Origin: Branchiostoma floridae
Lineage: Eukaryota > Chordata > Leptocardii > Amphioxiformes > Branchiostomatidae
Direction: 5' to 3'
NCBI RefSeq assembly: GCF_000003815.2
Contig: NC_049993.1
Location: 15,498,635-15,562,634 of the forward strand
DNA length: 64,000 bases
Every line of letters begins with the position of its first letter. Positions within the stretch are counted from its first letter, which is position 1. Both the position numbers and the translations under genes were made by a program. The notes under the pieces were generated by a model that saw only the letters and a list, made by a program, of their open reading frames with translations, did no database searches and was not told where the DNA came from. This document shows, one piece after another, positions 5,081-46,476 of the stretch.

Positions 5081-5414
5081 ATTAGTCCAATACTAGTCAG
5101 TGTAAGTCAGTGAAAACTGACAGGCCAGGCGCTCCATCGTACACGCGTGTTGAAAACGTTGTTAACTAACAAGTATGTAAAATTATCAAACCTTTTGTTG
5201 AACCTGCCATACGGATCGAATTCTTGCTCGAGCTCCGACTTCTCCGACTGGCAATCGTAGTCCTTGGTGTAGCTAGAACAGGAAGATCTGATTTTAATAC
5301 TTTTCAACATACGGGGAGAGATATAAGTATTTTTTCAATTGTTAGTGTAATGTTCGACATATATGTGCTCGTTGCTTGTTTGATTTACATTATGAGCGAT
5401 TTTTTGGATTTTTT

Positions 5415-5429
5415 TTTATTTGATTTATT
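5415..5429 (-). promoter_or_regulatory. candidate poly(A) signals for the EGF/mucin gene
   Basis: Two AATAAA hexamers on the minus strand (plus-strand TTTATT at 5415-5420 and 5424-5429) lie about 525 bp past the stop codon. The position is plausible but nothing else confirms use. Confidence 0.3.
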
Positions 5430-5952: not shown

Positions 5953-6115
5953 TTAGACTAACTTTTTTCTACGCAGGACGACGCAAACGGTCAACAAGAA
6001 AGCGAGGAACACGACAGCAGCGGCGCCCCCCGCGATGACGTAAACAGCCCAAGATGGCCACTGTGAGGAATCCTTAACTCCCGTACACGTACTGGTCCCG
6101 TCATCTTTCATACAC
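5953..6115 (-). other. last exon: juxtamembrane segment, transmembrane helix, short tail
   Basis: The exon enters in phase 2 and reads [19 protein letters not shown], then a hydrophobic helix ([20 protein letters not shown]) and a basic stop-transfer end, LRRKKLV-stop. The cytoplasmic tail is only about seven residues, too short for a signalling motif. Two Cys lie just outside the membrane. The acceptor is TTTGCAG|G. Confidence 0.85.
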
Positions 6116-9100
6116 CTGCAAATGAATACCATTAAATACACCATCATTGTTAGCACGAAACTAATTGATTTATTCTAGACGAACGTTTCAGTGAACGTAT
6201 GCCACCTTTCTTAGGGCAATACTGACTTGTTCTGTCACGTAGTACAAGTAGCACAGAACATTTGTTGGAAGCAGCACCCATCTATAGGGGACATTTATGG
6301 TGATCTTCCGCGGGTTTCTCACAGACTCAGACAGAGACGGGCACAGTTTGCTGGACACTGCCTTCGGGCTAGTGAGGAGGTAATCTCCTCGCTCCTCTTG
6401 TGGAGACCCCGCGGAAAAACTTATTCCCGGAAGCTGACCTTCCCGAGGCTGCTCTCCAGGGATACCGGGCTAGCGGAGGAGGACCTGGGAGCGGTCATGT
6501 CAGACAGGAAGGCGTGGGCTGAAGAAGTGCATGGACTTACCTCGCCCCCTCCGGGGGTCGACTAGTGATGATGAGTGAGTACAAGTAGGTGTCGCTGCTA
6601 ACAGATGTGGTCTAGACGTAAAGTATTGGAAAACATATTCTACGCCACAGAAATTACAACGAGGTAGGCGACAAACTTTGACTGAAGCGTTCCTCTTCAA
6701 TGAAACACATAGCTGTGTACAAATAAATTTGTTATTCTGTGACTCGTGAATCTGACAAAAGTATTTAAGATCAACGCTTTGGAGTACAGACGACTCTAAT
6801 TAATTACATAACAATTGGAGCCTTAGCACAGTTTACCCTATAGGCACAACGTTAGCGGTATCAGGGGATTTAAAAAAGGTTCCTGGCCAAATAGCCTGTT
6901 GTTGTGTCCCACGAACCTCTAATATGTGATATTTACCAAATTGAATACATGATCATATTATGGGTCAAACATACTGCCGTAATGCCGGCACCTGACCCTC
7001 TGAATAACTGTCACTTTTACCAATTACAAAATGTGGCAAACATCGGTGGCATTAGAGGATAATTCAAATTCAGGACCTTCGGGTTCTGGATCCAACATCC
7101 TGCCCCTACGCTACACGACCCTTTCAATGAACCGTTGGGTAACGTCGGTGAATTTGAACCCAGAACCTCAGGGTTTGGGGACAAATATATCCTTATGCCA
7201 AACAACCCTTATATTTACCAATTGGAAAAGTCGGGTAATTAAAATGCACGTACAATGAGTCCACTTGGATCCCCAGTGAGTTGTTCTTGCTCGTGATGTT
7301 GCTGAGGGCTAAAAGGAAAACATCTCGGACCTGTAAATCGGTAACGTCCACCGTGTCCTGACGCAAGTTCACCTCGTAGTCTGCGATGACACTCCCCTTC
7401 CGGAATCTGGTGATCACCACACTGACGATGTCTTCTGCTAGATAGCTTTCTTGTAGGTACAACCATATCTAATAATATCAAATAACAAAACAAAAAGCTC
7501 AATTACAAATGTCTTGGCATTCAGGTAACAGTCTAGAAGAAAAATGGCATCAAGAAATTTCTGTCTTTTTTCTTGTTGGACTGTAAAATGACTGATGTTC
7601 TTTTGTATCTGTAGGTAGGTAGTTGTATATGATTTGCGTGTGGGAAATAAGGCAAGCTCATTGATGTTAAAAATCAAGACGCCACCAATAGTGGAAATGT
7701 GGGTCCATTTTAACAGACTAGACAATTCAATTGGGTTAGTAGGTCAAGGAGCGACATTTCGTAAGAGAATTGACCTGACAAATGTTCAAGCAGAAATTCG
7801 GCTCGTTTTTGTCAGATTTATTTGGTTATCGTTTCTTCATGTCCGTCAGCCAAATAGAACAACAAGAACACATAACAAGGCTTCAAAAATAGCGTAGCCT
7901 AACCTATGCTTGGAGAGTAAGAATAAATACATTCATATGGTGACTGACCGTTTCTGTCAATTGAGAGGCCAGAGATGTAAACTCTTCAGATGTAGGATTG
8001 TTGAGTTCCTCGGTGAACTCTATGTTCACCATGGTGACTTCGAAGAAAAAGGTTGGTGGACCTATAAAACAAACAAGGCGAGAATCAACTAATACCATCG
8101 TCAAGCAAGACTCTATTGAGTAACAAAAAGCCCTCAATTCATTGCCAAGCATTAGAAATTAGAAATACGGCATAATAACGCATGCAGAAATGATAATAAT
8201 AGTGTCATCCACTTGCTTTTTTTAGGTTTCCAGAGAATTTTTCGGGACCAATAAGTTACTTTTTTTTTAGCAACATAACGTTAAGTGTCATTTTAAATTG
8301 GCTATAAGGTACCTTTGTCAATGACCCGCTTTCTATCTGTGAAGTGTTGACCTATCACATGCATGCATCAATTTCAATTTCAGGTTTGATACAGATAGAA
8401 TATGAATCAAAATGAATATAGGAGGATAGATTCTTACGTTCGGCTGTAACAAAACTTGACTGCGTCTGTTGTACAGTGGATTTGAATGTCGCGGACGGCT
8501 TCGTGAATGCTCCCGGCGTTGTCTGCGGTTTTACATCTTCCGTGAACATTTCGGTTGATTTTGTTGTTTGTAAGTAAGAAGTGGAAGAGTCTGCTGTTGT
8601 GTACTGTACACCCTCTGTAGTCACATGTACGTCCTCAGTGGTAGTTAGAGGCGCAGTGGTTGATGAGAGAGTAGAGGCAAAGATAGAAGAGTAGGTTTCC
8701 GTGACTGCAGTGGTAGTGTAAGCTGTTGTTTCAACTTCTGTTGAGGGTATGGAAGTGGTCAGAGGTGCAGTAGTTGTTAGATAAGTAGAGGTAAGGAGTG
8801 AGGTGTGGATTTCTTCATCCGTCGTGGTATGGTAGACCGTTGTTGTTTCCAAGCTTTCTGTTGTTGTTGGTTCAGATGTTGTTGGGTTGGGAGCGGTTGT
8901 CTGCTTCGGGTTGGTAGTTGGTTTGGCTGTCGTCATGGTAGTGTGTTCCATGGTCGTGGCTATCATCGTGGTAGAATGAATCTCTGTAGTAGACACTAAA
9001 ATGAAATCATAGTTGATATGTTCAATATATTAGTAATAACTTATAGATGATCAATGTCTTTGATACATTTGTAAATATCTTTCACTGTCCATCATAGATA

Positions 9101-12100
9101 TATGTATATGTTTAAAAGTATAACAAGGTTGATCTTACCTACCGTCTCTTTAGGTACCGATCAAAAATTGACCTGTTTAGGCCTTTGAACGCCAGATAAA
9201 TCCGTCTGGGTTAAATAATTTCGCTGTATGTATGTATGTTTGTATGTATGTCTACTGGGTAGGTAGGTATAGCCTGAGTACATTTCACCGTAGTGACCGC
9301 TGGCTCAAAACTTTCGTTTGCTAACCACGGGTAGCAAACGAAAGTATTAAGCCAGTGGTTGTTACGGGGGATGGTACTTAGGCTAAAGTAGGTAATTAAC
9401 TATATACTATGTATCCATGTATGTATGTATGTACGAGTAAAGACATACCTTTGAAGAAATGTGTGTATTTCTGTGTGCTACTGTGTCACTAAGACACTCT
9501 TTTACTTTTCTTGGTCTTCTGTCAGAAGCACTGTGCTACGTTTCTAGTGGTCCTTCTAGCGGCGAGCAAAGTATGCTCTTAACTATGGTCTGTAGCGAAG
9601 TGTGATTCTTGTTTTTTCCTTTAGTTACTTGCCGGCAATTAAAAGTTAAAAAAACGCAAATGCATTTGCAGATGGCAAACAAGCCATTTAAAGGAGAACT
9701 TTGCGCTCGCGCTGGCTCTAGCAAACTTGTTCGCAGGGAGCACAATAAAGAAAGTGAAGCGAAAGTTTGCCAAGCAAGGACAGTGAGGATAGAATAAAGT
9801 TAAAAGCATTCAAAAAAGATGCCATATGATTGTTCTACAACATTCTTACAGATATTTTTAACAACCATTGAATAGGTATCAATTCACATAGGGATAATTT
9901 ACCTTCGGTCTTCATGTATGCATGAAGAAGCTATTTTACCAGATCTTCAAACGATCACTTACGATCTTCACAGTTATCACCTTCCCAGCCGTTCTCACAA
10001 CTACAAGTGTAGCTCGCTACACCGTCTGTACAGGTGCCGTGTGTACAGGGGGAGGCCGCGCAGTCGTCTATGTCTGTAAAATAGAAACAAAGGATTTTAA
10101 AGACCTACATGTATAAAGGCATATTAGTGTTAAACATAACTGAATCACTATCAAGACGATGTATATTTAAAGATATTTCTGTATAATCTATACTAAAGAG
10201 GAACTATTTACCCTGGTCACAGTTTTGGCCTTCCCAGCCGTTCTCACAACTACAAGTGTAGCTCGCTACACCGTCTGTACAGGTGCCGTGTGAACAGGGG
10301 GAGGACGCGCAGTCGTTTATGTCTGGATAAATATACATGACAGATCACAGGTCAGGTATTAGTTTCTGAAAATAAGTCCATTTAGATAAGTCCATTCTTA
10401 ATTGAAATTATATCCGTCTCGTAAAAATCATGGGTGATTTATCTTTGGCCTCTATTTATACGTACGCAAGACAAAAATATGTCATAATATAATCAAACGA
10501 TCACTTACTTTGATCACAGTTGTCCCCTTCCCAGCCGTTCTCACAACTACAAGTGTAGCTCGCTACACCGTCTGTACAGATACCGTGTGTACAGGGGTCA
10601 GGACTGCAGTCGTTTATGTCTGAAGAAATATATAAATATTATAATAAATATAATGATACTTTGAAACACCAGGTTACCGTCCTATCTTTCCATGGGACAT
10701 GTATACGGAACATATAAGTTAAACTGGGTCTCAACATAAAAAATTACTTACTTTGATCACAGTTGTCCCCTTCCCAGCCGTTCTCACAACTACAAGTGTA
10801 GCTCGCTACACCGTCTGTACAGGTGCCGTGTGTACAGGGGGAGGCCGAGCAATCGTCTATATCTGATTTAAAGGAATAGTAAAATGTTTATTTTCAAGAT
10901 CATTACACGAAATCTTCTTATCTTTAGACATACATAAGGGATACAAAAACTAAAGAAGATATGGTCTTAGTATGTGTATAAATGGCCACTTACTTTGATC
11001 ACAGTTGTCACCTTCCCAACCGTTCTCACAAGAACACGTGTAGCTCGCTACACCATCAGTGCACGTACCGTGTAGACAGGGGGACCCTACACAGTTATCA
11101 ATGTCTGAAAGAAAAACGATGTTTTATGTAGACAGATATCAATACAACCCTTTTTAAAGCTAGAGCTTCATGTTTCAGACTTTTAGACGAATCGCTAGCT
11201 TAATGTTATATTTGAAAAATATAAGTCTTCTTGTTAGTCATTTACGCTTGAATTAATACGCATTCAAAGTACCATCATATCGCAACGTACGTGTTTAAGA
11301 TTGGGGTTTTCCAGAGGGTGCCATCCATTTGATCATACCAGCACGTTATCATTAAATGGAAAGCATGGACTTGCCGTGTTCAACATTGGCCCACAAAGTA
11401 TGCAATTACTCTCTCTATGCATTTACTAGTGTTACTACTAAATCAACCATATTCTTTCTTTCGTAGATACTTACTATTACTACAGTTGACTCCGCCCCAA
11501 CCGTGCTCACAGGTACAGGTATAACCGGATATTACGTCATTACAGGTGCCGTGTGCACAGGGGTCAGGACTGCAGTCGTCTATATCTGATGGTGAAGAAA
11601 GTACACACTTATAGGAATACTGAAATATGTTACTGACTGCTGTTAAAAGGAAAACATGACATGCTATTAGCAAGCATTAAAAAATCACCTAGAACTTACT
11701 CAAAGAAAGAGGCACAAAGTACTTTATTTATTGCTACTTGAACGTTTGAATTATTTACATGTGCCGCATGCACAGAATAGCGTTTATAGTTTATCTAAAG
11801 ATATGACCGTTTACATGTTTAAACAAGAAGACTTAAGCTATCATTTACCTTGGTCACAGTTGTAACCTTCCCATCCGTTCTCACAACTACAAGTGTAGCT
11901 CGCTACACCGTCTGTACAGGTACCGTGTGTACAAGGGTTGGGACTGCAGTCGTCAATATCTGATGATAAAAAAGTGCAGGAGTTTCTTTGAGTTCGTTGT
12001 AAAGGGATAATATCTCAAACATTTCAGATTTATTGATACACAAAAATTTTGTAGATTGAATGGAGACAACTTGAACATGTTTAAGATAAAGTACGTACTT

Positions 12101-15100
12101 TGATCACAGTTGTCCCCTTCCCATCCGATCTCACAACTACAAGTGTAGCTCGCTACACCGTCTGTACAGGTGCCATGGAGACAGGGGTTGGGACTGCAGT
12201 CGTCTATATCTGATGGTTCAAAAATGGACAAGGAAATGCGTTACTATGATCAACCGATTAAACCGACAGAAAATATCTCGTGCCCTATAAAGGCTAAACA
12301 TGTGTTGAGAAGTAGCAAGTACTCACTTTGATCACAGTTAAAACCTTCCCAGCCGTTCTCACAACTACAAGTGTAGCTCGCTACACCGTCTGTACAGGTG
12401 CCGTGGAGACAGGGGGAGGCCGCACAGTCGTCTATGTCTGTATACGTAAGATTGAAGATTCATTTTGTTTTAGATCATGTCATGCTACAATTGATCACAT
12501 ATTGTCTTTGCATAAGAATATTGTTTAAATGCCATACATAGCTTTATACAGTTCTATTTCTAAAAAAAAAAACATATTTTGACGAGTTGTCTCCTTTAGC
12601 TATTTTCAATGTTCACTTTTTTTGCTTCGATTGAATTAATTTTTTTAATGTCATTTTTCAAAGTTTAACGATCACCTACTTTGATCGCAGTTTTGACCTT
12701 CCCATCCGTTCTCACAACTACAAGTGTAGCTCGCTATACCGTCTGTACAGGTGCCGTGTGTACAGGGGGAGGCCGCACAGTCGTCTATGTCTGAAGAAAT
12801 GTATAATTGGTCATATCATGATACTATTAATTACAATTATCACGAATGATTTACATCTTTAATTTGACATGTTTTCTCCTTCGTAGACGCAAACTTGGGT
12901 AGAATAAGGCTTTATTATTGTCTTGATACGATCACTTACTTTGATCACAGTTATCACCCTCCCAGCCGTTCTCACAACTACAAGTGTAGCTCGCTACACC
13001 GTCTGTACAGGTGCCGTGTGTACAGGGGGAGGCCGCACAATCGTCTATGTCTGAAAATGAATGTTAGACATCTATTGAATATTATTGTACAGGTGCATTT
13101 TCTATTTCATGCTGCCTTATTCGGCTAGCTTTAGCATATGATGTTTTAACATTTTTTGACAATGAACACTCACTTTGGTCACAGTTAACACCCTCCCAGC
13201 CGTTCTCACAACTACAAGTGTAGCTCGCTACGCCGTCTGTACAGATGCCGTGTGAACAGGGTGAAACTGCACAGTCGTCTATGTCTGTAAAATGAAAGAT
13301 ACAATATGTTATATCATGCTACAACTAATCGTTGTATAACTATTTATTACATTGCTTTGTTGGAAAATTCAGTAGAACTTGCACAAATCCTTCTAACTTA
13401 AGTGAAAACAGCCTACAAAAAACATGGTTATACCTCAATGCTAAAACAAAGTATATGCACTTAAATCTAACGACTCCTAGTCTACTTTTAACATCTGACG
13501 GTACCTCAATAGAGCAGGTTACTGACTTCGAATACTTAGGTGGCTTCACTGATAGTTGTCATTATATGAATGTTAGGATAGCCTCGGCATGGAGTGCCCT
13601 TCAATCATTACACAGATATCAGGTTAAATGGAGAGAACCTAAACATCGTTAAGTTGAAGCACCCACTTATATCACAGTTCTCGCCCTCCCAGCCGTTCTC
13701 ACAACTACAAGTGTAGCTTCCTACACCGTCTGTACAGGTGCCGTGGAGACAGGGGTCCGGACTGCAGTCGTTTGTATCTGATGGTGGGAAAATGGACAAT
13801 AGAATGCGTTACTATGACAAACTGTTTAATCCAAGAGAATATCTTGTGCCCTAGACATGTGTTGAAAGTAGCAAGTACTTACTTTGGTCACAGTTTTCAC
13901 CCTCCCAACCGTTGTCACAACTACAAGTGTAGCTCGCTACACCGTCTGTACAGGAGCCATGGAGGCAGGGGCTGGGACTGCAGTCGTCTATGTCTGATAT
14001 TAGAAAATGTATACAAGAATTATCAATTTTTTGGATGAAATTAGAATATATCATATGGCCTAAATATGTGTTGAAAAAAAAGCAATAAATACTTACTTTG
14101 ATCACAATTGACCCCATCCCAGCCGTTCTCACAACTACACGTGTAGCTCGCTACACCGTCTGTACAGGTGCCGTGGAGACAGGGGGTGGCCGCACAGTCG
14201 TCTATATCTGTAACATGGAATGCATTCTTTCAAAGACGACGAACAAACACTCGTACATCCTGCTTTACATAGAAAGCATTGCCACCTTGTCACGGCGACA
14301 AAATCATCTTAGAAAGTCTGCTTCATATCATACTTTGTTGAATAAAATAACGTTTTACCCTGATCACAGTTGACACCTTCCCAACCGTTCTCACAACTAC
14401 AAGTGTAGCTCGCTACACCGTCTGTACAGGTGCCATGTGTACAGGGAGAGGCCGCACAGTCGTCTATATCTGAAAATGAATGTTAGATATCTATTGAATA
14501 TTACTGTACAAGTGCATTTTCTATTTCATGCTGCCTAATTCGGCTAGCTTTGATAAATAAAGTTTGAACATTTCTTGATAATGAACACTCACTTTGATTA
14601 CAGTTGACACCCTCCCAGCCGTTCTCACAACTGCAAGTGTAGCTTCCTACACCGTCTGTACAGGTGCCGTGTGCACAGGGGTCAGGACTGCAGTCGTCTA
14701 TGTCTATAAAATTTATATAAGATATCATCAATTTACTTTTAAAGATAAGTGACCCTTGTGAAATCTTTATATGGTCGAGTTGTCTCCTTTACATAAATTC
14801 TATGTGTAAGTTCTTATTAATCAAACCAAACGATCACTTACTTTTATCACAGTTTTCGCCCTCCCAGCCGTTCTCACAACTACAAGTGTAGCTTCCTACA
14901 CCGTCTGTACAGGTGCCGTGGAGACAGGGGTTGCCAACACAATTATCGATGTCTGAAAGAGAATAGAATGCGGTCGTTACTATAAGAGACGAGCAATTAC
15001 CGTAATAAAATTGTTTACTGAATTTATCGTGTCATATACAGACGTTGCTACTATTAATCCATGCGCTAAACTTGTTCAGTTCGCACATACATACATATTC

Positions 15101-18100
15101 ATACTCACAATGTACTGGCTATGTAAAACAATTGTTTTTACTTAGAAAGCTTAAAATGGAGTTTATCTGTTGGCAATGTTTTGTTGTATATGATTTTGAT
15201 ACTCACTACTACTACAGTTGACTCCGCCCCAACCGTGCTCACAGGTACAGGTATAACCGGCTACTACGTCATAACAGGTGCCGTGTGCACAGGGGTCAGG
15301 ACTGCAGTCGTCTATATCTGCATGAAAACATCATATATATATATTCATATTTGTGACTCACCAAGATACAATGTCAAATTTATACACAGTAAAAAGTTAG
15401 CTGCGAAACAGACGTATATAGTTAACGCTACAAGTCCACGCCGACATTCGTATATTTTTATTACTTATATGGAAAATTGAATTAACGTTATTGTCTGTCT
15501 ATGTTTATGTGTTGGTGCGTTTCTGTTTCCGTCTTCTTGTGGTCAACACAACTGACAAACTTTTACAAAAATCAGTACAGCATTCGTTGACATAATGTTC
15601 ATAAAGAAAGAGTACACGCTTTTTAATCCCTTACTATAAAGATATTTATCATTATTATTCCTGATACATAGAAATAGCGTAAAATACTATATAGAATGGA
15701 TATATAAAGACACTTACTTTGATCACAGTTGTCCCCTCCCCATCCGTTCTCACAACTACAAGTGTAGCTCGCTACACCGTCTGTACAGGTACCGTGTGTA
15801 CAGGGAGAGGTCGCACAGTCGTCTATGTCTGTAAAGTTTAAACAATGATTTAAAAGACGGATAAAGGAATAATAGTGCTAAAACAACTGAACCAATGCCA
15901 CCTTTATGTACATTTAGAAACCTTTCTGTATACTGTATACTATAGAGCAACTACTTACCCTGATCACAGTTGCCCCCTTCCCAGCCGTTCTCACAACTAC
16001 AAGTGTAACTCGCTACACCGTCCGTACAGGTGCCGTGGCGACAGGGGGAGGCCGCACAGTCGTCTATGTCTGTAAAAAAAGTTCGATGGATATCATTGGT
16101 AAAACAGTACTTCCGAAACAAGATACAGCTACGCTATTTGTAAACTGTGTTTTCCTTTTTTGTTATAAAGTAGAATAACGCTCAGGCATGTAGGTTTTGA
16201 AACGATCCCTCACCTTGATCACAGTTGTTACCTTCCCAGCCGTTCTCACAACTACAAGTGTAGCTAGCTACACCGTCTGTACAGGTGCCGTGGAGACAGG
16301 GGTTGGGACTGCAGTCATCTATATCTGGTTTGGAGGAATGTATAAAGAAGACGATAACTATCAACTATAAACTAACCGAACTTGACGAATGAACGATGAC
16401 GTTTCTGAGACATTGTTTACTTGTATAACAGCCTCAACCAAGTTTGAGCTAACTATATAACAATCTGGTAAATATGCCATGATTTTTTTTACCTTGATCA
16501 CAGTTTTGACCTTCCCAGCCGTCCTCACAACTACAATTGTAGCTGGCTACACCGCCTTTATATACCCCACTTTAAGCAAATAAAATAGACTAATTAATAC
16601 AAAAAATATTTTTACCTTGATCACAATTTTGACCTTCCCAGCCGTTCTCACAACTACAAGTGTAGCTCGCTACACCGTCTGTACAGGTGCCATGGAGACA
16701 GGGAGAGGCCCCACAGTCGTCTATGTCTGGAAGAAAAATCCAATGGATATCATCGCTCAAACATCACCTCTGAAACACAGCCCCAATTATCTCTTTCAAC
16801 TATAGATTCTTTCTGATACAGCTAACTTATGTGTTAACTATGTTTATCTTTTGATATGTTTAAGAAGAATACATTTCAGGCATGTCTTGAAACGATCACT
16901 CACCTTGATCACAGCTTTGACCTTCCCAGCCGCTCTCACAACTACAAGTGTAGCTCGCTACACCGTCTGTACAGGTGCCGTGGAGACAGGGGTTGGGACT
17001 GCAGTCGTCTGTATCTGATTTCGGAAATAGATAAAAAAATAAAAGCTTGTGTTAAGAAAGCAACGACACATTACGTTTTTTTAGCAAACTACTACCATAA
17101 ATAGGTTGCGATATTTTTCGTTCGGCATATTTCACCTCACATATACAACTCAGTATTTGGGGGTCAGATTAAAATTAAAACTATATTTTTGGGAAAAAAC
17201 TTACTTTGATCACAGCTTTGACCTTCCCAGCCGTTCTCACAACTACAAGTGTAGCTCGCTACACCGTCTGTACAGGTACCGTGTGTACAGGGAGAGGCCG
17301 CACAGTCGTCTATATCTGCAAAATGAACGAACTGATTTCAAAGACTGATGAATGAATGCATATTACATGGTTTCCAAAATGTTTGGCTTAATCCTGCTGT
17401 TAATGCCAACCGTTTTGGAAATATATTTAAGAACCGTCTGCAAGACACGTTTCTCTCTGGTTGGAGACAAGAATTAAGAAGTTCTAACAAACTCAGTACT
17501 TATTGTAAAATCAAAAAAGAATACTGTTTCGAAAAATATCTTTAATCTGTTCAAAACAAATTGTTTAGAAATGACCCAACAAAACTAAGGATTAGTGCAC
17601 ACACCTTACAAATTGAAAATTGGCCGACACTACAACATACCAGCCAATGAGAGACTTTGTCCCACATGCCATAATGACATAGAAAATGAATTTCATTTTG
17701 TAATGGATTGTCCGACTTATGAAGAAGACCGTCAAAAGTTATTTCAAAATATTGTATGTAAGTCCAAAATTGTACTGCCACATGCTAGGTCAGAGGTATA
17801 CCATTTGTTATTATCATGTCCTGTTCAGATATCTGCCTACGTAGGCCAATTTATTCACAACTCATTGCAAAAACGAGATAATGCTTTGTGATACTCACTA
17901 GATTGTTTATACAGTTATATTATATTACATTAGTTGTCAGTTATTTGTATTTGTATGTAGTTGTTCACATTGCCATACATTGTAACCGTTACAATTGTTG
18001 CGCAATAAAGTTCTTCTTCTTCTATTATTATTATTACAAATGGAACGCTATTAACGGTGGTCATTGATATTACGTAAAGCTTCAAAGTCGTAAGTATTCT

Positions 18101-21100
18101 GAAACGATAACCCACCTTGATCACAATTGACACCTTCCCAGCCGTTCTCACAACTACAAGTGTAGCTCGCTACACCGTCTGTACAGGTGCCGTGGAGACA
18201 GGGAGAGGCCGCACAATCGTCTATATCTGGAAGAAAAATTCAATGGATATCATCGCTCAAACATCACCTCTGAAACACAGCCCCAATTATCTCTTTCAAC
18301 TATAGATTCTTTCTGATACAGCTAACCTATGTGTTAACTATGTTTATCTTTTGATATGTTTAAGAAGAATACATTTCAGGCATGTCTTGAAACGATCACT
18401 CACCTTGATCACAGCTTTGACCTTCCCAGCCGCTCTCACAACTACAAGTGTAGCTCGCTACACCGTCTGTACAGGTGCCGTGGAGACAGGGGTTGGGACT
18501 GCAGTCGTCTATGTCTGGTTTAAGGGATGAATAAAAAAAGAAAATAAAGTAAACTTGCAACAAGAAGATATTACAATTAACGGTGCATGACCCTGATATT
18601 AACCAAAACTCACCATTGAACGTGTTTTGGCATTATCTACCTGTAACACAGGCTCAACCTAGTGTCAGTTCAAGATATAACTATCTGGTATGTGTCATAT
18701 ATGATAAAATATAAATAATTCATAAATCAACCAAATTATTTTTACCTTGGTCACAGTTTTCACCCTCCCAGCCGTTCTCACAACTACAATTGTAGCTCGC
18801 TACACCGTCTGTACAGGTGCCGTGAAGACAGGGGTTGGGACTGCAGTCGTATGTATCTGATTTCGGAAATAGATTAAAAAAATAAAAGCTTGTGTTAAGA
18901 AAGCAACGACACATTGCGTTTTTTTAGCAAACTACTACCATAAATAGGTTGCGATATTTTTCGTTCGGCATATTTCACCTCGCATATACAACTCAGTATT
19001 TGGTGGTCAGATTAAAATTGAAACTGTATATTTTTTGGAAAAAACTTACTTTGATCACAGTTTTGACCTTCCCAGCCGTTCTCACAACTACAAGTGTAGC
19101 TCGCTACACCGTCTGTACAGGTGCCGTGTGTACAGGGAGAGGCCGCACAGTCGTCTATATCTGCAAAATGAACGAACTGATTTCAAAGACTGATGAATGA
19201 ATGCATATTATTATTATTACAAATGGAACGCTATTAACGGTGGTCATTGATATTACGTAAAGCTTCAAAGTCGTAAGTGTATTCTGAAACGATAACCCAC
19301 CTTGATCACAATTGACACCTTCCCAGCCGTTCTCACAACTACAAGTGTAGCTCGCTGCTCCGTCTGTACAGGTGCCGTGTAGACAGGGGGAGGTTGCACA
19401 GTCGTCTATATCTGATGGAGGGAAATTTGGAAAAGGTAATGCGTTACTATGGTCCACTGTTTAAACCAGGAGAAATATGTATTATGACATAAACATGTGT
19501 TGAAAGTAGCAAGTACTCACTCTGATCACAGTTTTGACCTTCCCAGCCATTCTCACAACTACAAGTGTAGCTCGCTACACCGTCTGTACAGGTGCCGTGG
19601 AGACAGAGGGAGGCCGCACAATCGTCTATGTCTGTGAAATGAACGTCGATGTCAAATATGCACGTGGCAATGTTACCCAGGGAAATAAAAATAGTCCAAA
19701 TTCAATTTCATCCTCCATGTTCACAGAAAAAAAAACGGATACTTGCCCTGATCACAGTTGTCCCCTTCCCAGCCGTTCTCACAACTACAAGTGTAGCTCG
19801 CTACACCGTCTGTACAGGTGCCGTGTGTACAGGGAGAGGTCGCACAGTCGTCTATGTCTGGAAAGTAACAGTCACTATATACAAAGCCGACGATCCATAT
19901 TTCTATTGTATAAAACTATTACTCATATGCCTTCCTATATACCTATGCCTCTCACAAACGTTTCCATACTAGAATGCTTTTGGAGAATAAAATTGGCATA
20001 AATATATAGTCATTATTTACCTTGGTCACAGTTTTGACCATCCCAGCCGCTCTCACAACTACAAGTGTAGCTCGCTACACCGTCTGTACAGGTGCCGTGT
20101 GTACAGGGGTCAGGACTGCAGGCGTCTATATCTGGTGAAATAGACAGAACAGGATATTCCTTGAGTATTTAAAGGGGGTCATGTTATTCTTTAAAGGTTC
20201 AGGACCTCAGTCGTCTGTATCTGATTATGATATTAATAAGATGCCGTTCATTATATGGAGAACTAAGCACGGTAATATACGGATAATGTACTGACGTAAT
20301 ATATAAGCTATGACAGCTTTCTACTGACTTGAAGTACAGTTGACTCCCTCCCAGCCTTGATCACAGGTACAGGTATAGCCTGCGTCTCCGTTAACGCAAT
20401 TGCCGTGTGTACAGGGGTCAGGACTGCAGAAATCTACTGGTGCTGGTGAAAAAGTAGATATAATTACGAGAGTTTGCGAGAGGTATTTATTTGTGGCTGC
20501 AAATAATTAAGGGTTAATGACCCGCCCCGAGGTGTATATGGTGTCATAACGCCTGGCCCTTTGCTATAACCACTGAATAAAACCACCGAGTGAGCGAAGC
20601 GAATGAGGTGGTTTTATGAGGTGGTCATTCATTCTGACCAATCAGAAGGAGGATACACAGCGGCCTGGGCGGAATCTATGTGTTACGGCGTCATAACCAA
20701 TGTGGAACGGGGCCTTCTGATTGGTCCGCGGCGCCTGGCTATATGATAAAATCCATTTATAAACATTAAAAATTCATGGGAAGTTTTAATCTGATCTAGG
20801 TATTTTACTGTGTTTGTTAAAGCTCAAAAATACATACTACAAGTATATTGCGTCTCTATTGCTATATGTCTGTATTAAAACAATCAAGGCGCGAATAGGT
20901 ACAATATATTAATTAACAGAAATGAAATACTCAAAACAAAGTACTTTTTCTTTACTATCGTGACTACAAAGACATAGGTGCCATTCGAGCAACAAAGAAC
21001 TTACCATCACAGCCAAGTATCTCTGCCCGCAGACGGATGTAAGCGGTGCCCTGAAATGTTTGTGGATTTATCCTCACGTACTGTGTGAGAACTGGAGTTG

Positions 21101-24100
21101 GTAGGGTTTGTTGCACTACTGTTGGGCCGTCGGTGTTACCTGTAAAGATCTGGACCAACATGGCATCGTTTGTAAATGTTCCTATGTCTATGAGAACTAA
21201 ATAAATGTATTTTTCGACTCCCAGGTGACACCTAAATTGGTTTACATGTTTGCATTGCATCAGCTAAATCGCTTATTAGGGTAAAACACCATTTTTGTAT
21301 GATCATAGACCGGGAAGAGCTCCTTTCAAATTGGTAAATGTAGCTGTTTTAGTGGGTTTGTTTTACGTGCACGGGGCATTGATTTTATGTCCTATAATAG
21401 GATGTCCTTTAACATAATCTATTTTCACAAGTGAAGTGAGAAAATGATCCACTATATATGGGCATAACATAGGAGCATCTGAAGGGACTCTAACCCATGT
21501 CTTCGAGTCAAACACCCTATCGTTACGCTACGTGACGCCAATACGCTCCTTTCACCTGACCTATAATTTCACCATAAATGTTCTATATGACTGACCAAGT
21601 ATAAAACTTACGGTGTCATCTTGTCCATCTCCGTAAGTGACCCACGTAGTCCCATCGTCAGAGTACAACAGTTTGTAAGTCTTGGTGTGCCCTCCCCACA
21701 GACCTTGTGTTTGGATGCCGGTGACGAACTTTTGACTACCTAGGTCGATCTGTAGCCACTGGTTTGTATCGGCTGTGTCGGTCTGCCACGCCTTGCCGTT
21801 ATTCAGACGACCCCTCCAAGCCTCGTATCCAACTTTCTCAGTAGAGGCTGTTATGTGGTCGTCAGGGATTATTCTAGACTCCATTCCAAGAGGCGTAGAA
21901 CAGTCATCAGGAACCACTAGCAAGAGCAAATAGAAAATATAGGAGTTTAGAGACCTCATGCCCCCATGAATTATAATGGCAATCATACAATTTGCAATGT
22001 TATGTACACTTAACTCATGTCACAAATATATTGATACTATCATTTATCTGTCAAATATGGTACTTTTGAATCAACCATGCAAATGAATCCTATATTCGAT
22101 GAAATTACTATTATATATAATTAATATTCCACATGGCATAAGTTACATGTTATGTATACAACTTTCTACATGTATATAGCACGTATTATAGAAAATATTG
22201 TAATCATAGAATAATTTCCTTGATTATATGAATTAAAGTATAGTTTGTAAAGCCTGTAAGTGAGCTACTTACATGCCCCACGTCATGACAATCATTCTTC
22301 GCTTTTTTAGTTACTTGGAATATCTTTCGAGGAAATAAAGTTCCTGAGCAAGCTGTCTGGGGGCCCAAACCTTCACCGCGTCTTTTACACATAACATGGT
22401 CTTCAATAAGTTATAATTCAAAACCATAGCATGCCCATGAAAATATGCAATAAACGGACGTTCTGCTCATAAGGTCATACACCAGGGCCTACACTTAAAC
22501 GCCACCTCGTCCTCCCAAAACCCACCATCACACCAAAATTTGCAATTCATTCACCTTAGTTTATACTCACCACAAACATACTGAAATGCAAACAACTAAA
22601 CAAACAGATGAAAACTATTCCTCTGTTTTTGACGCTGGTAATAACACATTTGATACTATTTTTAAAGCAATTATGCAACTTATCCAATGCAATCCATGTA
22701 CATATGAGTAACAGTATGAGATTGCGCCCAACAGAGGTACATCAGTTGTTCCTGAAAATATCCCTGTCCAAAACTTGGCCATTTCTTACGTCCTATCTCG
22801 TATGTCCAGCAAAAGGAATTTTTAAGCGATAAAGTTGTGACCCGAAGAAAAACAAACCAGTACTTACAACAATTGGTGTTGCATGCAGCAGATTATTCCT
22901 AAACTATCACCAATACTTCAGCCTGTATATGTATAAATCAATGTCGTAAAGTATTCGACAATGCTAGACAAAACACGACAACAGCAATAACGTTATATCC
23001 CAGCCTGCAAAGTAGTTACCTCCTTGGGTACACGCAACATAGCAAAGTACACCAAATTTAGATAACAGAACGTCCTGCTAATTACATATATACCTGTCCC
23101 ATAACCTAGACTTGTCAGCAATAAAAACCTTATCACCATTCGCCCATGTTAGATAACTGCCCCTTCTTATTGCCTTCGTCTTTAATGATTGTATCCGCAC
23201 AATGCAAATGAAGTGTTGACACTGTTTGGTCAAAGTATTTACTGATCAAATACGTCAGAGTCTGATATGAGTGGAGGTTATGTAGCCTCTACCAGGCTCC
23301 GCTGCTGATCGGTGGTCTAATAATAGAAATTGGACAAATACAGTCTATAGTACGCTAGAGGTGGGTGAGGACCGGTGAGGAAAATAATTCTTTTGGCCGG
23401 CTGACTTCCATAGCGGACTCTATTTGTATAATTTCTACATTGATCTGCGGAGCCTGGTAGAGGCTTGTGGTTAGCTAATTTGACATCGTGTGCTCTGTTA
23501 CCTCTTTGAAAAATGAATGTATTTTTTATGATCTGTCTGTTCGCATGTGCATGTTTATCTATGTGTTTGGTGTGTTTTGTAATATTTGTGTTCAGCATAA
23601 CTAAAGAACCTCTGGATGAATTTCAATTGAAAAAAAGGAAGGTTAATATTTTGGGCCGCCCTGACGTGAGATCTTGCCGCTGCATCAGAACTTATTGTTT
23701 TTGTATCTTTTATCCAGGACATGATATGGTGTTGTTAGTTACCTGTACAATACTTCTCAGAATACCTTACAGAATAATATGACTCTCAGTACTTACCAAA
23801 ATCAGTTGAAGATGTAGTTGGCACAGTTGGACCTAATCGTAAACAGAGAAAATCATAAATATTAGCTATGACTCATAAATGTTGCTGACTAAAAACTGTC
23901 AAGATAATTTTTTAGAAATTTTCTTGAAAAATGCTAAGCGCCTTTATCTCGTTTCGACCTAAACTATTCAAACATAGGCAGTACGTCTCGGAATTGTTGT
24001 TGGTGAGCAAGGGACCAAGCCATCAGATAATGGCAACCGGCTACACGTCATTGACAAACTTTTAGCTATGTTGATTTCCTTTTTTCTGCAACATAATTGA

Positions 24101-26157
24101 TGCGGTTTTGATATGCTACAGCACCTGGCAACTGTTACCATACATGTATTGCAGGTGAAATAAAAACAAATCGTTAAAAGATCCGAACAATTAAATTCGG
24201 GCACAAGTACGTGAGTTTATTACTTTGGGTTAATTTGTATGTATAACTGTCCCACGACTGTAACTCACCTTGTCCTATAGTAGTTCCATACGTGGCACTG
24301 AATCCGTTGCTGAAAAAGTTGTTTCCGAGCGATGTAAAGACAACAGTCATTGATGGTCCTGTAGACACTATCTGTCCATCAGGCGTATTTCCCACACAAT
24401 ACGTGTCCAGTAGAGTCGTTGCATCAGAACTGCCGTCAAAAACCTCAAGTGTGTCCCCAGTGCCACAGTTATAACCAGCTAGGTTGAAGTCAGTTATGTC
24501 CAAGGTAACAGCCTGACCAGCAAGTGCAGTAATAGTCCAGGTACATTGTGTATCTTTAGGATACGTGGATGGGTAGTTTGGTGACGTAATCACTCCTGTA
24601 GGTGTAAATCCAGCGTCTATGGCGGAGTCACAAGCAGTGGCTGAAAAACATTGAAGAAGTATTTTTAACAAACGGCTTAAAAACAGCACAAGATTTTGTT
24701 GTTTGTATCAGAAGGGCAAGTGCTATTGTGACGAATGTGTTGATATATACATTTTTTTTCAGGCCTTCCAAATATACTTAATTTTTATCCACGGGGCAAC
24801 CTATATGTTCTTTCTATCAATTTAGGGTTTCAAACTGTGAAGTATTTTCAAATGTTGTCGCTTGAACCCACCGTCCGTCAACTTGACACCCCCAGTTTTT
24901 TTTTCAGACAACGGATATCAGTTAACCAGCGGATAAAGATGAAGTAAGGTTACATTCAAAAGCAGAACATAATATGGTTAAGAAAAGTGATTATTAGATG
25001 GATTTGATATTTGATCCATTTCTAGAATTTATATTTGTCATGTCTGAATAATTTCGCAAATAATACATACCCTGAGGTGAAAAAAGGCTATGAAATATAT
25101 CTATGTTAGCAAACCAAGTGAAAAATAACCTCACTTATAAATTTCTGTTTGCTCTCTTGGCCCGTGAAAAATGTTTTGATGGTGAAATTATTGACATTTT
25201 TTTACAGCCAACAACCATTAACAACAATAAACGTCTTACTATTGCATTAAGCTAAATGATAAATTGTTCTAACGCTGATATCACGTGGTAGCAGCGGAAT
25301 GTTTTGTAAGTTTATGACTAAAGTAGTGTTATCACCGTCTGCCCCCTCCCTAAAAGTAAAAAGACCTCCTCCCTAAAAATCACACAACATATTATTGATT
25401 GCATAAATGACCCCTGCTCTAAGCACAAATCAGAGACAACTTAGTCTACCTTACATCGAACAGGGGGTAATGAAATCGTAGTCTCTACCAGACTCCCACT
25501 TGGCCGAATAACAATTTAGCCAAGTTAGAAATAAAAGTCTAGTATGAGTTAATTGGACTAGGGATGGACTTACCGGAAGCGGATAGACTTCAAAAGACTG
25601 AAAACCCATAGTAACTTATCTGTCATTATTCGGCCAAACGCTTCTTATTTCTAGAATTCTATCAAGCTGACACGTCTGCCGAGATACTAATGAATTCCAC
25701 CAATTAGACAATGCAGCAGGCATTTGGAGCCTCCCAACTTCTTTGTTTGTATTGTATAACAGGTAAACCACCTTCTGTCATAACACACCAGGTTTGTACT
25801 AAAATAAAGAACAAGCCTTGGCTGCATATCCCAACATGTTTATTACACCCACTTACACTGGATAGGGATGTTTTATTTCCAAAGTCCTTGAAGTGTGGCT
25901 CCCTCAAACAAGGGAACCTCAATTTAACGTCCTATCTGAGGGACGTCCCAAACGCAGTTAGGTACTGATTTGTACCTGCGTTAAGTGAATGGAGGTTACA
26001 AAAAGTGTTCTTCAACAGGTAAAACGTCAACAGGTCATGCCAGGTTCTCTTGTGTCTGAGTCAAACACTATACCATTACACAACACTGATGCCATAACCT
26101 ACCTTGTTTTGAGAGCACCACGAAGAGCCAAAAGAAGAGAACTGTCTTCGCAGTCAT
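5953..26157 (-). CDS. CUB / F5/8C / 34x EGF / mucin-like / SEA transmembrane protein (43 exons)
   Basis: This is a single-pass type I surface protein of 1,910 residues built from 43 exons that join in one frame with no stop (5,733 bp). Exons in coding order: 26157-26103, 24640-24269, 23832-23797, 21916-21612, 21149-21005, 34 EGF exons between 20436 and 9963, 8995-8438, 8061-7949, 7468-7254, 6115-5953. Approximate residues: signal peptide 1-18, CUB 19-142, Pro/Thr linker 143-154, F5/8C 155-304, EGFs 305-1561, mucin segment 1562-1747, SEA 1748-1856, helix and tail to 1910. Most joints are phase 1, the usual state of shuffled extracellular modules. These domain families bind carbohydrates, phospholipids or proteins, so a role in adhesion, pathogen recognition or epithelial glycocalyx is an inference. 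I do not know a named gene with this order. The intron between the last two exons holds an opposite-strand LINE piece. Confidence 0.9.
6227..6567 (+). mobile_element. LINE fragment, C-terminal ORF2 end, antisense in an intron
   Basis: The plus-strand reading contains [20 protein letters not shown] followed by HCLRA, then [20 protein letters not shown] and a stop. This arginine-rich tail is common to the C-termini of many non-LTR retrotransposon ORF2 proteins. It sits inside the last intron of the EGF/mucin gene on the opposite strand and lacks the reverse transcriptase, so it is dead. Confidence 0.8.
7254..8061 (-). other. SEA domain, two exons (8061-7949 and 7468-7254)
   Basis: The exons join in phase 0 after QLTET and give a ~109-residue SEA domain: [19 protein letters not shown], then [19 protein letters not shown]. 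The FR-x-GSV-x-x-DY-x-V core is diagnostic of SEA domains in membrane mucins. G-S-V-I-A stands where cleavable SEA domains have G-S-V-V-V; the Gly-Ser that undergoes self-cleavage is kept, so autoproteolysis into two non-covalently held chains is possible but unproven. The second exon must end at the GTACGT donor (7253 downward) to keep frame with the last exon. Confidence 0.85.
8438..8995 (-). other. Thr/Ser-rich mucin-like exon
   Basis: This is a 558-bp symmetric (phase 1-1) exon of 186 codons dominated by Thr, Ser and Pro (for example [20 protein letters not shown]). An internal repeat centred on TTAPLTT occurs twice about 45 residues apart. It should be densely O-glycosylated and act as an extended stalk between the EGF rod and the SEA domain. 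There are no cysteines. The acceptor is TTTTAG|TG and the donor C|GTAAGA. Confidence 0.9.
9271..9384. mobile_element. foldback element with ~50-bp arms
   Basis: AGCC(T)GAGTAC... at 9271 pairs with ...GTACTTAGGCT at 9384. The inner arms ACTTTCGTTTGCT / AGCAAACGAAAGT surround a ~10-base loop. It lies in the intron between the last EGF exon and the mucin exon and is flanked by GTAT microsatellite DNA. Confidence 0.8.
13380..13640 (+). mobile_element. LINE reverse-transcriptase fragment, antisense in an EGF intron
   Basis: The plus-strand reading includes [11 protein letters not shown], then [20 protein letters not shown] and [16 protein letters not shown]. This is the stretch after the catalytic core of LINE reverse transcriptases (Asn-x-Lys-Thr-Lys...V-x-D-F-x-YLG). 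It is a short internal fragment without start or catalytic motif. Confidence 0.8.
16493..16556 (-). pseudogene. relic EGF exon (3' half only)
   Basis: The sequence keeps the last 60-odd bases of an EGF exon, from GGTGTAGCCAGCTACAATTG through the final Cys and CAAG|GTAAAA donor. It breaks off near 16556, so the first three cysteines and the acceptor are gone. Included in mRNA it would give a half-EGF; skipping keeps the frame. Confidence 0.8.
16616..19206. repeat. recent multi-exon block duplication inside the EGF gene
   Basis: The block 16616-17014 (two EGF exons and their intron) recurs at 18116-18514 at an exact 1,500-bp offset, with about two changes in the ~177-bp intron. The following intron (17015-17204) recurs at 18857-19049. 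The next intron recurs at 19161-19300, there without the LINE insertion seen at 17366-18022. The second copy contains one extra EGF exon (18746-18856), whose preceding intron resembles the one at 16325-16492. Confidence 0.9.
17366..18022 (+). mobile_element. 5'-truncated LINE 3' end inserted in an EGF intron, TATTA target duplication
   Basis: The insert encodes degraded ORF2 C-terminal sequence in two frames: [20 protein letters not shown], then [20 protein letters not shown]. The latter is the Cys-rich RFC-x-x-C...E-x-HF...CP motif of LINE tails. It ends AATAAAG plus a TTC-repeat tail. TATTA at 17361-17365 is repeated at 18023-18027, and the empty site is preserved in the paralogous intron near 19204, which fixes both ends. 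The interrupting stop and frame changes show it is dead. Confidence 0.9.
20198..20224 (-). pseudogene. relic of an EGF exon start
   Basis: The minus-strand reading gives CAGATACAGACGACTGAGGT and a few further bases, clearly the first ~25 bases of an EGF exon (DTDD then a stop in place of Cys). No further EGF sequence follows. It lies between the 108-bp EGF exon and the first 111-bp exon. Confidence 0.65.
20577..20616. repeat. 40-bp palindrome
   Basis: ATAAAACCACC ... GGTGGTTTTAT is a near-perfect palindrome. It lies inside a GC-richer ~240-bp patch (about 20515-20755) that also carries inverted copies of GACCAATCAGAAGG at about 20636 and 20715, so the patch is probably a decayed foldback transposon. 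Confidence 0.55.
21005..21916 (-). other. F5/8 type C (discoidin) domain, two exons (21916-21612 and 21149-21005)
   Basis: The exons join in phase 0 (GQDDT | IFTGNTDG). The domain starts at [20 protein letters not shown] and ends at AEILGC, so both boundary cysteines of the discoidin fold are present. Between them are [30 protein letters not shown] and [13 protein letters not shown], all family-typical. F5/8C domains bind glycans, phospholipids or collagen through loops at one end. The acceptor for the second exon (GGTCCAG|ATC) was chosen because it is the only nearby AG that keeps the family alignment. Confidence 0.9.
23284..23465. mobile_element. MITE with long terminal inverted repeats, intronic
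   Basis: AGCCTCTACCAGGCTCCGC at the left end is exactly inverted at the right end (GCGGAGCCTGGTAGAGGCT). Pairing continues weakly inward (TAGAAATT / AATTTCTA). The 182-bp element is in the intron before the linker exon. Confidence 0.85.
23797..23832 (-). other. 12-residue Pro/Thr linker exon
   Basis: This 36-bp phase 1-1 exon reads [12 protein letters not shown] between CUB and F5/8C. It has a clear acceptor (GATTAG|GT) and donor (G|GTAAGT). It is too short to be found by open-frame search and its inclusion is optional for frame, so it could be alternatively spliced. Confidence 0.7.
24269..24640 (-). other. CUB domain exon
   Basis: The 372-bp phase 1-1 exon holds a full CUB domain: [20 protein letters not shown] then [26 protein letters not shown] and DTYCVG. 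Four cysteines sit in the canonical C1-C2, C3-C4 arrangement, and the acidic residues of the GDTLEVFDG stretch fit a calcium-binding CUB. CUB domains mediate protein-protein contacts in extracellular and developmental proteins. Confidence 0.93.
24856..24960. repeat. dispersed repeat shared with 38590-38695
   Basis: CCACCGTC-GTCAACTTGA and, ~45 bp later, a CA/GATAAAG-TGAA-TAG motif occur in the same order and spacing in both places. Neither copy codes for protein. The class is unknown. Confidence 0.5.
25499..25660. mobile_element. degenerate MITE with inverted repeat
   Basis: TTGGCCGAATAAC at 25499 is inverted as ATTATTCGGCCAA at 25625-25637, and TAGAAATAA motifs flank both. It is short, non-coding and lies in the first intron of the EGF/mucin gene. 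Confidence 0.55.
26103..26157 (-). other. signal-peptide exon of the EGF/mucin gene
   Basis: ATG at 26157 begins [18 protein letters not shown], then phase 1 donor CAAG|GTAGGT. The hydrophobic core after a Lys is a clear signal peptide, and joining to the CUB exon gives ...SKQATACDS, a reasonable cleavage region. The 55-bp exon phase matches the CUB exon. Confidence 0.85.
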
Positions 26158-28631: not shown

Positions 28632-29010
28632 CTATTGTTTACATGCCTCTTCCCTCTTTGTAAAATAAGTATATACGAACTCACAGAGTTTTTGTTGTAC
28701 AATGTTGTCTCTGGCTGTCACTATATATACAAATAGTTCGTCTTTGCTTAACTGTTTACATCGGGGGTCTACAATGAGAACACTGTTAAAATTGCGTATA
28801 TCACTGTATATGGGACACTCTAATAGAAAATGGACTTCATTTTCTAAAAGATTGGAGTTACAGAGTGTACAGAATCTGTCATTCGGAGGAGTCTGGTTGT
28901 ATCTTCCCACTTTAATTTGTAGGGGATAATCACTGATTCTTAATTTAGCCATGGCGCGGCGATGGTTGAAATTATGTATATTTAGGTACTGCTCTCTTTC
29001 ATATGTATGT
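28632..29010 (-). mobile_element. LINE fragment, ORF2 C-terminal end
   Basis: The minus-strand reading is REQYLNIHNFNHRRAMAKLR and then GRYNQTPPNDRFCTLCNSNL and ENEVHFLLECPIYS. It is the same protein tail as the insert at 17366-18022, but diverged and in the opposite orientation. It is 5' truncated. Confidence 0.85.
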
Positions 29011-31057
29011 TTGATTTTTTATATGTTCTTGTTTCCTTGATTTTCGTTTTTACCATTAGAGTTCAGGACTGAGTAGAATGTTTGAAGGTAAGTCTTCTGT
29101 AAGTCACTGTAAGTCTTCACAAAGGTCATTGTGTTCACTATCTCTTGTCCTTGAACAAAGGTTGGGTTACTCGTACCTCTGAACCACATAAGGTTATTGC
29201 CTAGCCATTTATTACATGAAATGACATTCAGTGATAAAGATTTGACTCACAAAGGCATTTGCCTGTCGTTTATGGCCAATTAACAGCTTGTCATACGTTA
29301 ACATCGACAAATAGTCGTGGAGTCAATTTAAACTGTTCTTCCAAAAAATGTGGACCCATGTTACACGAAAGCGTCAATGGTCAATCATAATTTGATACTT
29401 CCCAGAGGGTCAGCTCTTCATGCAATGGTGGTCAGGACATGTGGCCGGAGCGCCCTTGTTTCCAATGACACAGCTTCTTTTCTTTGTTATTTATGATTTC
29501 ATTGACCATACATCTGGTTAAAGTATAGAGCAGGAGGGCGCAGCATAAACTGGTTTTCCTCTCCTCCTGCACCTGTTTTATGTTTTATTCTTTTCTGTAT
29601 CTATTATCATATTGTTGTGCAAATAAATAAACAAGAAAACAAACAAAAGATTGACAATATAATCATTGTTGAACTGGCGACAATTATGTCTTATTGTATT
29701 ACTGGAGGTGAACATATTAGACAAACCAAGTCTGTCAAAGAATAGGCTGTATGTTTGAAAGACTGTATGTCCTGTGGATTGGCAGCCTTTTTTTTTTGCT
29801 GTTTTTTTTTTCTTTTTTTTCACGTCCGCGCGCAAATATTTAGGGGTCTCCAGAGGGTGTCAACCATTTAACTAAGTCGTTGAGGCCTCATATGCGCTTA
29901 CGAAATCAAACCTTGGTGAAGGGTTATCACAATCTGTCAAGAAACATTGCAGTATAGATTGCTATCTTTTATAACAGGGTTAGCAAACACATTTGGGTTG
30001 GTTAGGGTATTTGGATTATGACATATCCCCTCCACGATAAAGAACAAACTAAAACGGGTCGTTCGACAATTTACATATGGAAAAATGTAAATAGTCAATA
30101 TGATGTTCCAATTTAGTTAACCCTATCCAGACGAGGGAGTCGGCTTTTGAGGCCTGTGCCAACTTTTGGCTACAAAATCAATTTCAGGAGTGATAGGAAA
30201 ACTCGTCTTGTTCTGTGTTCTTTGATATGTGCTGAACAGTTGGCCTTCTTGATGTGCTCATCGCTGTTCAGAAAATATGCACGATAAAGGAAGTGTCTAT
30301 GCGCATAGGGAATGCATGGCTATGGCCTGCTTTGGTTTAGTGAGTGCCGTATTGTTTTACAAAACGTTAACATACATCGATTATTCACGACAAGAAAAAT
30401 TTCAAAAATCTCGTATAAATATGTATTTATTGGTACGCTATCTACTGGAAAATAACACTTCCTTCTGGAGTGGAATGCCCCTTTAGTACTTCTGCTGTAT
30501 GTTCAGTGGAACTTTGTACCTTTGACGTTTCCGTCTTCTGTTACTACCCGTGACCATGACCAAGACTAAAGCTAAGAGTACAACCCGCCGTACGTGCAAA
30601 ATAAATACGTGCTGTCTACGTGCCAAAACGTGGGTAATCTTTTGGGATCCGCAAGTGGTAAGTACCGCCTCCGTACGAACTCGTAGGAAATCCGATTTTG
30701 GAGCACGCAGACACGCCGTAGAACTTAACGTGCAGGCAAAACTTTGTGTGCCGTCGGGCTGTGGATGTGGACACCTGGGGGCCAAAATCTACCTTGACCT
30801 TCTTGCCCCCCCCCCCCCCCGCACACACAAATTATGCTGAACACAGACAACAGGAAACAAGGACACTAAAAAACAGAGCTAAAATTATACCTATATTTTT
30901 CATTGAGGTAAAAAGGGGAACTGATGTTAGCCTATAGGATTTCTAGTTTGCGGAAGTCACGAGCACTGAAAAATATAAACAAGGGAACCATGGCTTATAT
31001 TGACAAAACATACGGAAGTATTTTTACAAGTTCTGCATTTATCGACAACAGCCTTCC
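29011..31057. other. intergenic DNA between the EGF/mucin and TLR genes
   Basis: I see no convincing exon. There is a 15-base C run at 30806-30820 and T/A-rich low-complexity DNA at 29785-29822. Overlapping open frames on both strands at 30483-30940 have no family pattern. Confidence 0.45.
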
Positions 31058-38165: not shown

Positions 38166-45267
<7,102 letters not shown>

Positions 45268-46405: not shown

Positions 46406-46476
46406 GCATCGGTGGTTCAGTGGTAGAATTCTCGCCTGCCACGCGGGAGGCCCGGGTTCGATTCCCGGCCGATGCA
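46406..46476 (+). tRNA. tRNA-Gly (anticodon GCC)
   Basis: This 71-nt sequence folds as a cloverleaf. The acceptor stem is GCATCGG/CCGATGC with discriminator A, the D-arm GGTTCAGTGGTAGAA also forms the A box, and the anticodon stem is CTCGC/GCGGG with loop CTGCCAC (anticodon GCC at 46438-46440). The T-arm/B box GGTTCGATTCC is intact. A run of six T (46477-46482) gives the RNA polymerase III terminator. No intron and no CCA, as expected for a eukaryotic gene. The body matches the highly conserved metazoan tRNA-Gly(GCC). It decodes GGC and GGU. Confidence 0.98.

Follow-up and report, generated by a model that had tools for sequence, protein, structure and literature searches.

The 64,000-nucleotide stretch of Branchiostoma floridae DNA analyzed here (the window) carries on its minus strand, from 26157 to 5953, a series of exons whose modules follow one another as CUB, F5/8C, 34 EGF domains, a stalk rich in proline, threonine, and serine (PTS), SEA, and a transmembrane (TM) helix. 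We put at about two in three the probability that this is one gene, built by domain shuffling, and that its product is a type I single-pass protein in which a ligand-binding CUB and F5/8C head, the EGF rod, and the PTS stalk form a sheddable ectodomain on a SEA–TM base with a cytoplasmic tail. A signal peptide, the TM helix, and the order of the modules indicate a receptor of type I, and its role might best be read as that of a recognition or glycocalyx protein particular to the lineage, whose ectodomain can be shed.

The exon set was curated by hand from Pfam matches, phases, and splice scores; flanking exons were joined to the EGF array by phase and splice score, the score matrix being trained on the EGF array itself. 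The rebuild yields 43 exons of 5,733 nt in total—1,910 codons and one stop—and reproduces the exon count and open frame of an earlier sequence-only reading. Automatic exon chaining was dropped, as its 62 exons were an over-prediction. The ATG of exon 1 is the sole one in its open stretch upstream of the donor, and the 12-codon exon 3 is weak and optional: when it is omitted, the frame stays open over 1,898 codons. Among the spliced pieces, a Pfam scan of the first 377 residues gives CUB (3.8e-21), F5_F8_type_C (9.7e-26), and EGF (3.1e-10), and one of a C-terminal piece of 215 residues, which included the candidate tail described below, gives SEA. Together with cysteine pattern, stalk composition, and hydropathy, these matches support the domain order first proposed from the letters.

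On the minus strand, the cysteine-spacing pattern retrieves 34 EGF exons; it retrieves none on the plus strand and none in 20 of 20 mononucleotide shuffles. A looser pattern adds one minus-strand match (56804-56929), which lies within a degenerate tandem repeat of 39-bp units (56711-57365). All EGF exons are phase 1-1; EGF2 to EGF34 measure 111 nt each and EGF1 108 nt, and the GC donor belongs to EGF3 (19857-19747). Every one of the 34 domains has the cysteine spacing 4-4-8-1-8 and a C2–C3 loop of four residues, and a four-domain piece finds its best matches in the Protein Data Bank (PDB) in Delta-like 1 and Notch-1. Calcium-binding EGF domains generally bear the signature D/N-x-D/N-E/Q-C plus a hydroxylation motif in each domain. 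The calcium-type rod of the earlier reading stands in part: a hydroxylation-type motif is present in 34/34 domains and a relaxed calcium pattern fits 31 of them, whereas the usual E/Q ligand occurs in 0/34, and none of the three scanned sequences with EGF domains, of which one was cysteine-trimmed, reached the Pfam EGF_CA cut-off. Glycosylation-site patterns give one O-glucose site in the array and neither an O-fucose nor an O-GlcNAc site, which sets it apart from Notch-type receptors with their O-fucose-site EGF domains.

The array also bears traces of its history. Over 528 EGF pairs (EGF1, having a different length, was left out), the mean proportion of nonsynonymous differences (pN) is 0.109 versus 0.359 for synonymous ones (pS); the EGF protein sequence is therefore held by selection while the copies drift. 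EGF6-9 and EGF10-12 are related by a recent block duplication, with identities of 96.1% over 467 bp and 95.6% over 431 bp. Within it, EGF11 is a hybrid of EGF7 and EGF8—its first four bases match EGF7, base five onward EGF8—and its upstream intron matches that upstream of EGF7 at 95.9%. Such a mosaic is expected from a within-exon recombination that removed one unit, and the length of the array would change by unequal recombination. Intron 9 has about 655 extra bases (insert 18020-17366). A fragment resembling the zinc-binding end of reverse transcriptase lies on the minus strand at 28635-29018, below the Pfam cut-off; over 34 bp, the intron-9 insert resembles part of this fragment (82%).

In the head, the F5/8C domain has its nearest PDB matches in pseutarin C, neuropilin-1 (2.7e-39), factor V, and factor VIII, lactadherin ranking lower, and the CUB domain in cubilin. 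A Pfam scan of the 377-residue head reported no MAM, LCCL, CLECT, CCP, or HYR domain.

Relatives were sought in the window's own assembly (513,431,437 bp in 431 contigs, with the window at C15:15498635-15562634), and matches are spread over C1 to C19. Contig C5 harbors SEA–TM relatives at about 12.505, 12.843, and 12.873 Mb; relatives of SEA also occur on C10, C7, and elsewhere. Upstream of the 12.843-Mb copy stand 11 EGF exons, 7 close and 4 about 8 kb farther. The 12.873-Mb copy has two close EGF exons and six more some 19-21 kb farther up, which may or may not belong to the locus, and the 30 kb examined at 12.505 Mb contain none. On C15 at 1.286-1.291 Mb, the plus strand reads, in order, F5/8C, an open stretch of PTS type (406 codons), a pair of SEA pieces carrying FRSGSVIVDYVI, and a TM piece; the F5/8C exon is 79% identical to that of the window (Pfam 4e-16). 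This order ties the head type (F5/8C) and the base type (SEA–TM) to one locus. At C4:2.82 Mb, F5/8C is followed by EGF of the window type, and EGF domains of that type were also found on C4, C5, C7, C12, and other contigs among the 150 of 3,182 candidates that were scored. Another EGF array, at C4:14418440-14424713, is perhaps a very recent expansion: some of its exons follow one another at intervals of about 200 bp, and many of their match scores are equal.

The C5 loci bear on the possibility of a secreted or matrix protein whose SEA–TM exons belong elsewhere. Fibropellins of the sea urchin apical lamina are described with an N-terminal C1s-like domain, up to 21 EGF-like domains, and an avidin-like end (PMC10336842), and the CUB domain plus EGF array of the window resembles them. 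In two C5 loci, however, the SEA–TM exons come directly after EGF exons; no avidin-type domain was reported when the stalk and the SEA–TM–tail piece were scanned, the C-terminal scans returning SEA only, and the window protein has F5/8C, PTS, SEA, and a TM helix instead, the last not being expected of a fibropellin. We hence regard a fibropellin-like rod as highly improbable.

The stalk comprises 186 of the 1,910 residues, with 45% S+T, 51% S+T+P, and no cysteine, and a tandem-repeat scan at default threshold gave no row at its exon (8438-8995). SEA-type transmembrane mucins (MUC1 and the MUC3/12/13/17 group) combine PTS and a SEA domain with a G/SV-type motif near the membrane (the slash marking the cut), and some carry EGF; their long tandem-repeat PTS makes up most of the ectodomain. 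The window protein is likewise predicted to be a type I TM protein with PTS, a juxtamembrane SEA domain, and, by sequence, a GSVVV-type motif, but it differs in its short stalk free of reported tandem repeats—not the long, repeat-dominated PTS of these mucins—in its 34 EGF domains, and in its CUB and F5/8C head. The TM helix follows with a hydropathy of 2.70 over 21 residues. The SEA–SEA and SEA–TM introns and the TM-exon donor agree in place and phase, by eye and junction by junction, with one C5 locus, and the TM donors do so in three. Extra exons between SEA and TM are not needed, as the phase-2 donor at 7253 suffices and is conserved in the C5 locus.

The potentially self-cleaving SEA domain of the earlier reading is supported insofar as its site, FRK-G/SVIA, is of the self-cleaving type; cleavage itself is putative. 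The motif aligns with ADGRF1 FRNGSIVAGYEV within a weak overall match (E 0.11), and the two PDB entries that match better are transmembrane proteases. In ADGRF1 and ADGRF5, GSVVV or GSIVA motifs are reported to lead to autoproteolytic cleavage (PMC6954182). One might instead assume the same gene with a structural, uncleaved SEA domain and hence a protein that remains a permanent element of the glycocalyx: a motif is no proof of cleavage, and the window has GSVIA where GSVVV is the usual form. Yet FRxGSV[IV][AV] is kept in 6/6 second-SEA-exon matches from 18 fetched genome stretches, which suggests selection on the putative cleavage site and makes the uncleaved form rather unlikely in our view. 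For SEA domains without a structured neighbor, such as that of MUC1, high proteolysis without ligand has been reported (PMC6586460), and since the SEA neighbor here is the PTS stalk, this may apply to the window protein as well.

The C-terminus requires a revision. All three C5 TM exons inspected reach a canonical phase-2 donor (AGGAA/GTAAGT once, AAAAG/GTAAGT twice, the slash now marking the splice site) followed by an in-frame stop. In the window, a weaker donor, AAAAA/GTTAGT (score 3.6), stands at the same place and phase just before the stop at 5953, so that this stop is probably intronic and the C-terminus at 5953 probably a retained intron. At the 12.843-Mb C5 locus, a tail exon of 69 nt in phase 2-2 (C5:12842809-12842741; acceptor 3.5, donor 9.7) encodes KQWSWRLKKEYDQFDPYSRRSS; behind it, in phase, comes another stretch that looks coding (acceptor 9.5). 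The tail exon shares FDPYxR with the window exon at 5272-5192, and the two agree in phase and in the distance between FDPY and the end of the exon. The case for a tail exon is carried by this agreement in place, phase, and spacing, the sequence similarity by itself being modest (tblastn E 0.34). Hence, the earlier statement that there is almost no cytoplasmic tail is probably wrong, and the window protein probably has one, encoded by at least one exon beyond the 5953 stop.

Several observations weigh against the single, tailed gene. A fourth TM exon, on C15, continues to a later stop without a donor break, and the other two C5 loci have no FDPY-like exon in the 5-7 kb examined. The tail similarity is reached or exceeded by 34/1000 shuffled tails; the candidate exon is fed by the 3.6 donor into an acceptor of 4.2 and followed by a very weak donor (-3.3), and polyadenylation-type signals lie ahead of it at 5429, 5420, and 5298. 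Its codon usage, matched by 3.4% of background stretches, lends modest support, and 13/248 background acceptors likewise open 27 GC-rich codons. Outside the array, on which the score matrix was trained, acceptors are low for both F5/8C exons (-1.4 and 1.0) and the linker (0.7). The SEA pieces on C15 are weak: their E values are 0.33 and 0.67 in the genome-wide search and 1e-5 and 5.3e-5 when the fetched stretches alone are searched, and in Pfam one reaches 24.2 bits versus a cut-off of 26.4 while the other has no match. The CUB domain bears Ala where cubilin carries a Glu that we take to be part of the usual CUB calcium site, so its calcium site is probably incomplete. In 19 fetched genome stretches, no CUB match was better than E 0.22, and hence phase and position alone link CUB to the remaining modules.

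These points touch on whether two or more adjoining genes, CUB–F5/8C upstream and EGF–stalk–SEA–TM downstream, are linked here by nothing but compatible phases. Where one module meets the next, the exon borders of the window gene are phase 1, as is usual for extracellular modules, which makes phase by itself no proof of joining, and the fetched C5 stretches show EGF with SEA–TM but neither CUB nor F5/8C. On the contrary, the C15 locus has F5/8C–PTS–SEA–TM in order and C4 has F5/8C beside EGF; ahead of the EGF1 domain, its open stretch contains no ATG, and merely 568 nt separate the F5/8C exon from that of EGF1. We therefore consider separate genes improbable and retain a single gene, whose exons would be joined in a single transcript (Table 1).

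Table 1. Exons and related features of the EGF-rod gene, in order of transcription (positions in the window)
Feature	Positions	Strand	Evidence
Exon 1: start codon and signal peptide	26103..26157	-	signal peptide by eye; donor 7.2
Exon 2: CUB	24269..24640	-	Pfam CUB 7.9e-22 on open stretch; phase 1-1
Exon 3: possible 12-codon linker, weak	23797..23832	-	donor 10.0, acceptor 0.7
F5/8C exon, first part	21612..21916	-	Pfam F5_F8_type_C 1.3e-15 on open stretch; acceptor -1.4
F5/8C exon, second part	21005..21149	-	spliced domain 9.7e-26; acceptor 1.0
34 EGF exons, one domain each	9963..20436	-	phase 1-1; EGF3 with GC donor
PTS (mucin-like) stalk exon	8438..8995	-	composition of 186 aa
SEA exon, first part	7949..8061	-	Pfam SEA 9.4e-15, spliced domain
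SEA exon, second part, putative self-cleavage motif	7254..7468	-	ADGRF1 alignment; FRxGSV motif
Juxtamembrane Cys pair and TM helix exon	5963..6115	-	phase-2 donor AAAAA/GTTAGT, score 3.6
Last codons and stop of the earlier model, probably unspliced intron	5953..5962	-	donor comparison
Candidate cytoplasmic-tail exon (N)YTKDYDCQSEKSELEQEFDPYGRFNK	5192..5272	-	81 nt, phase 2-2, in frame with TM exon

Individually, the parts of the window protein each resemble known proteins; the same layout was not found in the literature searched, the coverage of which is incomplete. Neuropilins and DCBLD proteins combine CUB and F5/8C on a TM protein with MAM or LCCL, and they are not known to have an EGF rod or SEA; the window protein shares CUB and F5/8C with them, one copy of each, with no MAM or LCCL reported in its head. 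Drosophila Uninflatable, likewise a TM protein and a large one, has CUB, FA58C, and an EGF-like series of eighteen repeats plus CLECT, CCP, and HYR—domains of its own, none reported in the window head—and SEA is not among the domains given in the available part of its description (PMC3340373). The long EGF rod can be likened to that of octovafibrin from octopus egg threads, where 29 tandem EGF units form a load-bearing rod with C-type lectin ends in egg-case threads; the accessible portion of its description names no SEA–TM base (PMC10336842). The unfamiliarity claimed by the sequence-only reading thus holds for the literature searched but less so for the genome itself, which has F5/8C–PTS–SEA–TM, EGF–SEA–TM, and F5/8C–EGF loci. 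As these part-orders already exist in the genome, the combination in the window appears to be drawn, reshuffled, from a kit already present there, and the gene appears to be one of the variants in this local set of shuffled SEA–TM receptors. More tentatively, and with odds clearly below even, there might be a hitherto undescribed receptor family in which exchangeable heads—CUB, F5/8C, EGF arrays of fluctuating length—sit on one conserved base of self-cleaving SEA, TM helix, and tail, a modular, force-released, and shuffling-built system of which the window gene would be a long, fully assembled member.

Elsewhere in the window, an LRR-TIR gene of the Toll-like receptor type occupies one open stretch of 841 codons on the plus strand (33244-35766); its proximity is no evidence of a function shared with the EGF-rod gene. 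Two open stretches matching the carboxylesterase family (40103-45294, minus strand) are likely exons of one gene, and a MyTH4 domain stretch (57524-57856, plus strand) likely belongs to a myosin gene. A tRNA-Gly(gcc) gene lies at 46406-46476 on the plus strand; the Rfam scan of the window reported nothing besides a tRNA.

How such a protein might work can be outlined from its modules. The head would bind a surface, glycan, lipid, or protein ligand, and the EGF rod and O-glycosylated stalk would keep it far from the membrane. An extended EGF domain measures about 3 nm; 34 of them, if stiff and extended, would form a rod of the order of 100 nm and hold the head clear of the glycocalyx. From the SEA motif and known SEA proteins we infer self-cleavage and release by force: while folding, SEA would cut itself at the G–S bond of FRK-GSVIA, the halves would stay together until pulled apart, and strong binding or shear would then release the ectodomain. 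The tail may anchor the protein or signal, and the gene would owe its origin to the shuffling of domains in a lineage that has several SEA–TM receptors.

Exon shuffling may here be caught in parts: F5/8C with the base, EGF with the base, and F5/8C with EGF occur separately, and all are joined in the window gene. The block duplication and the within-exon recombination product suggest that rod length may vary between individuals. And if the SEA site cuts, a head held so far from the membrane would provide a natural test of mechanical shedding.

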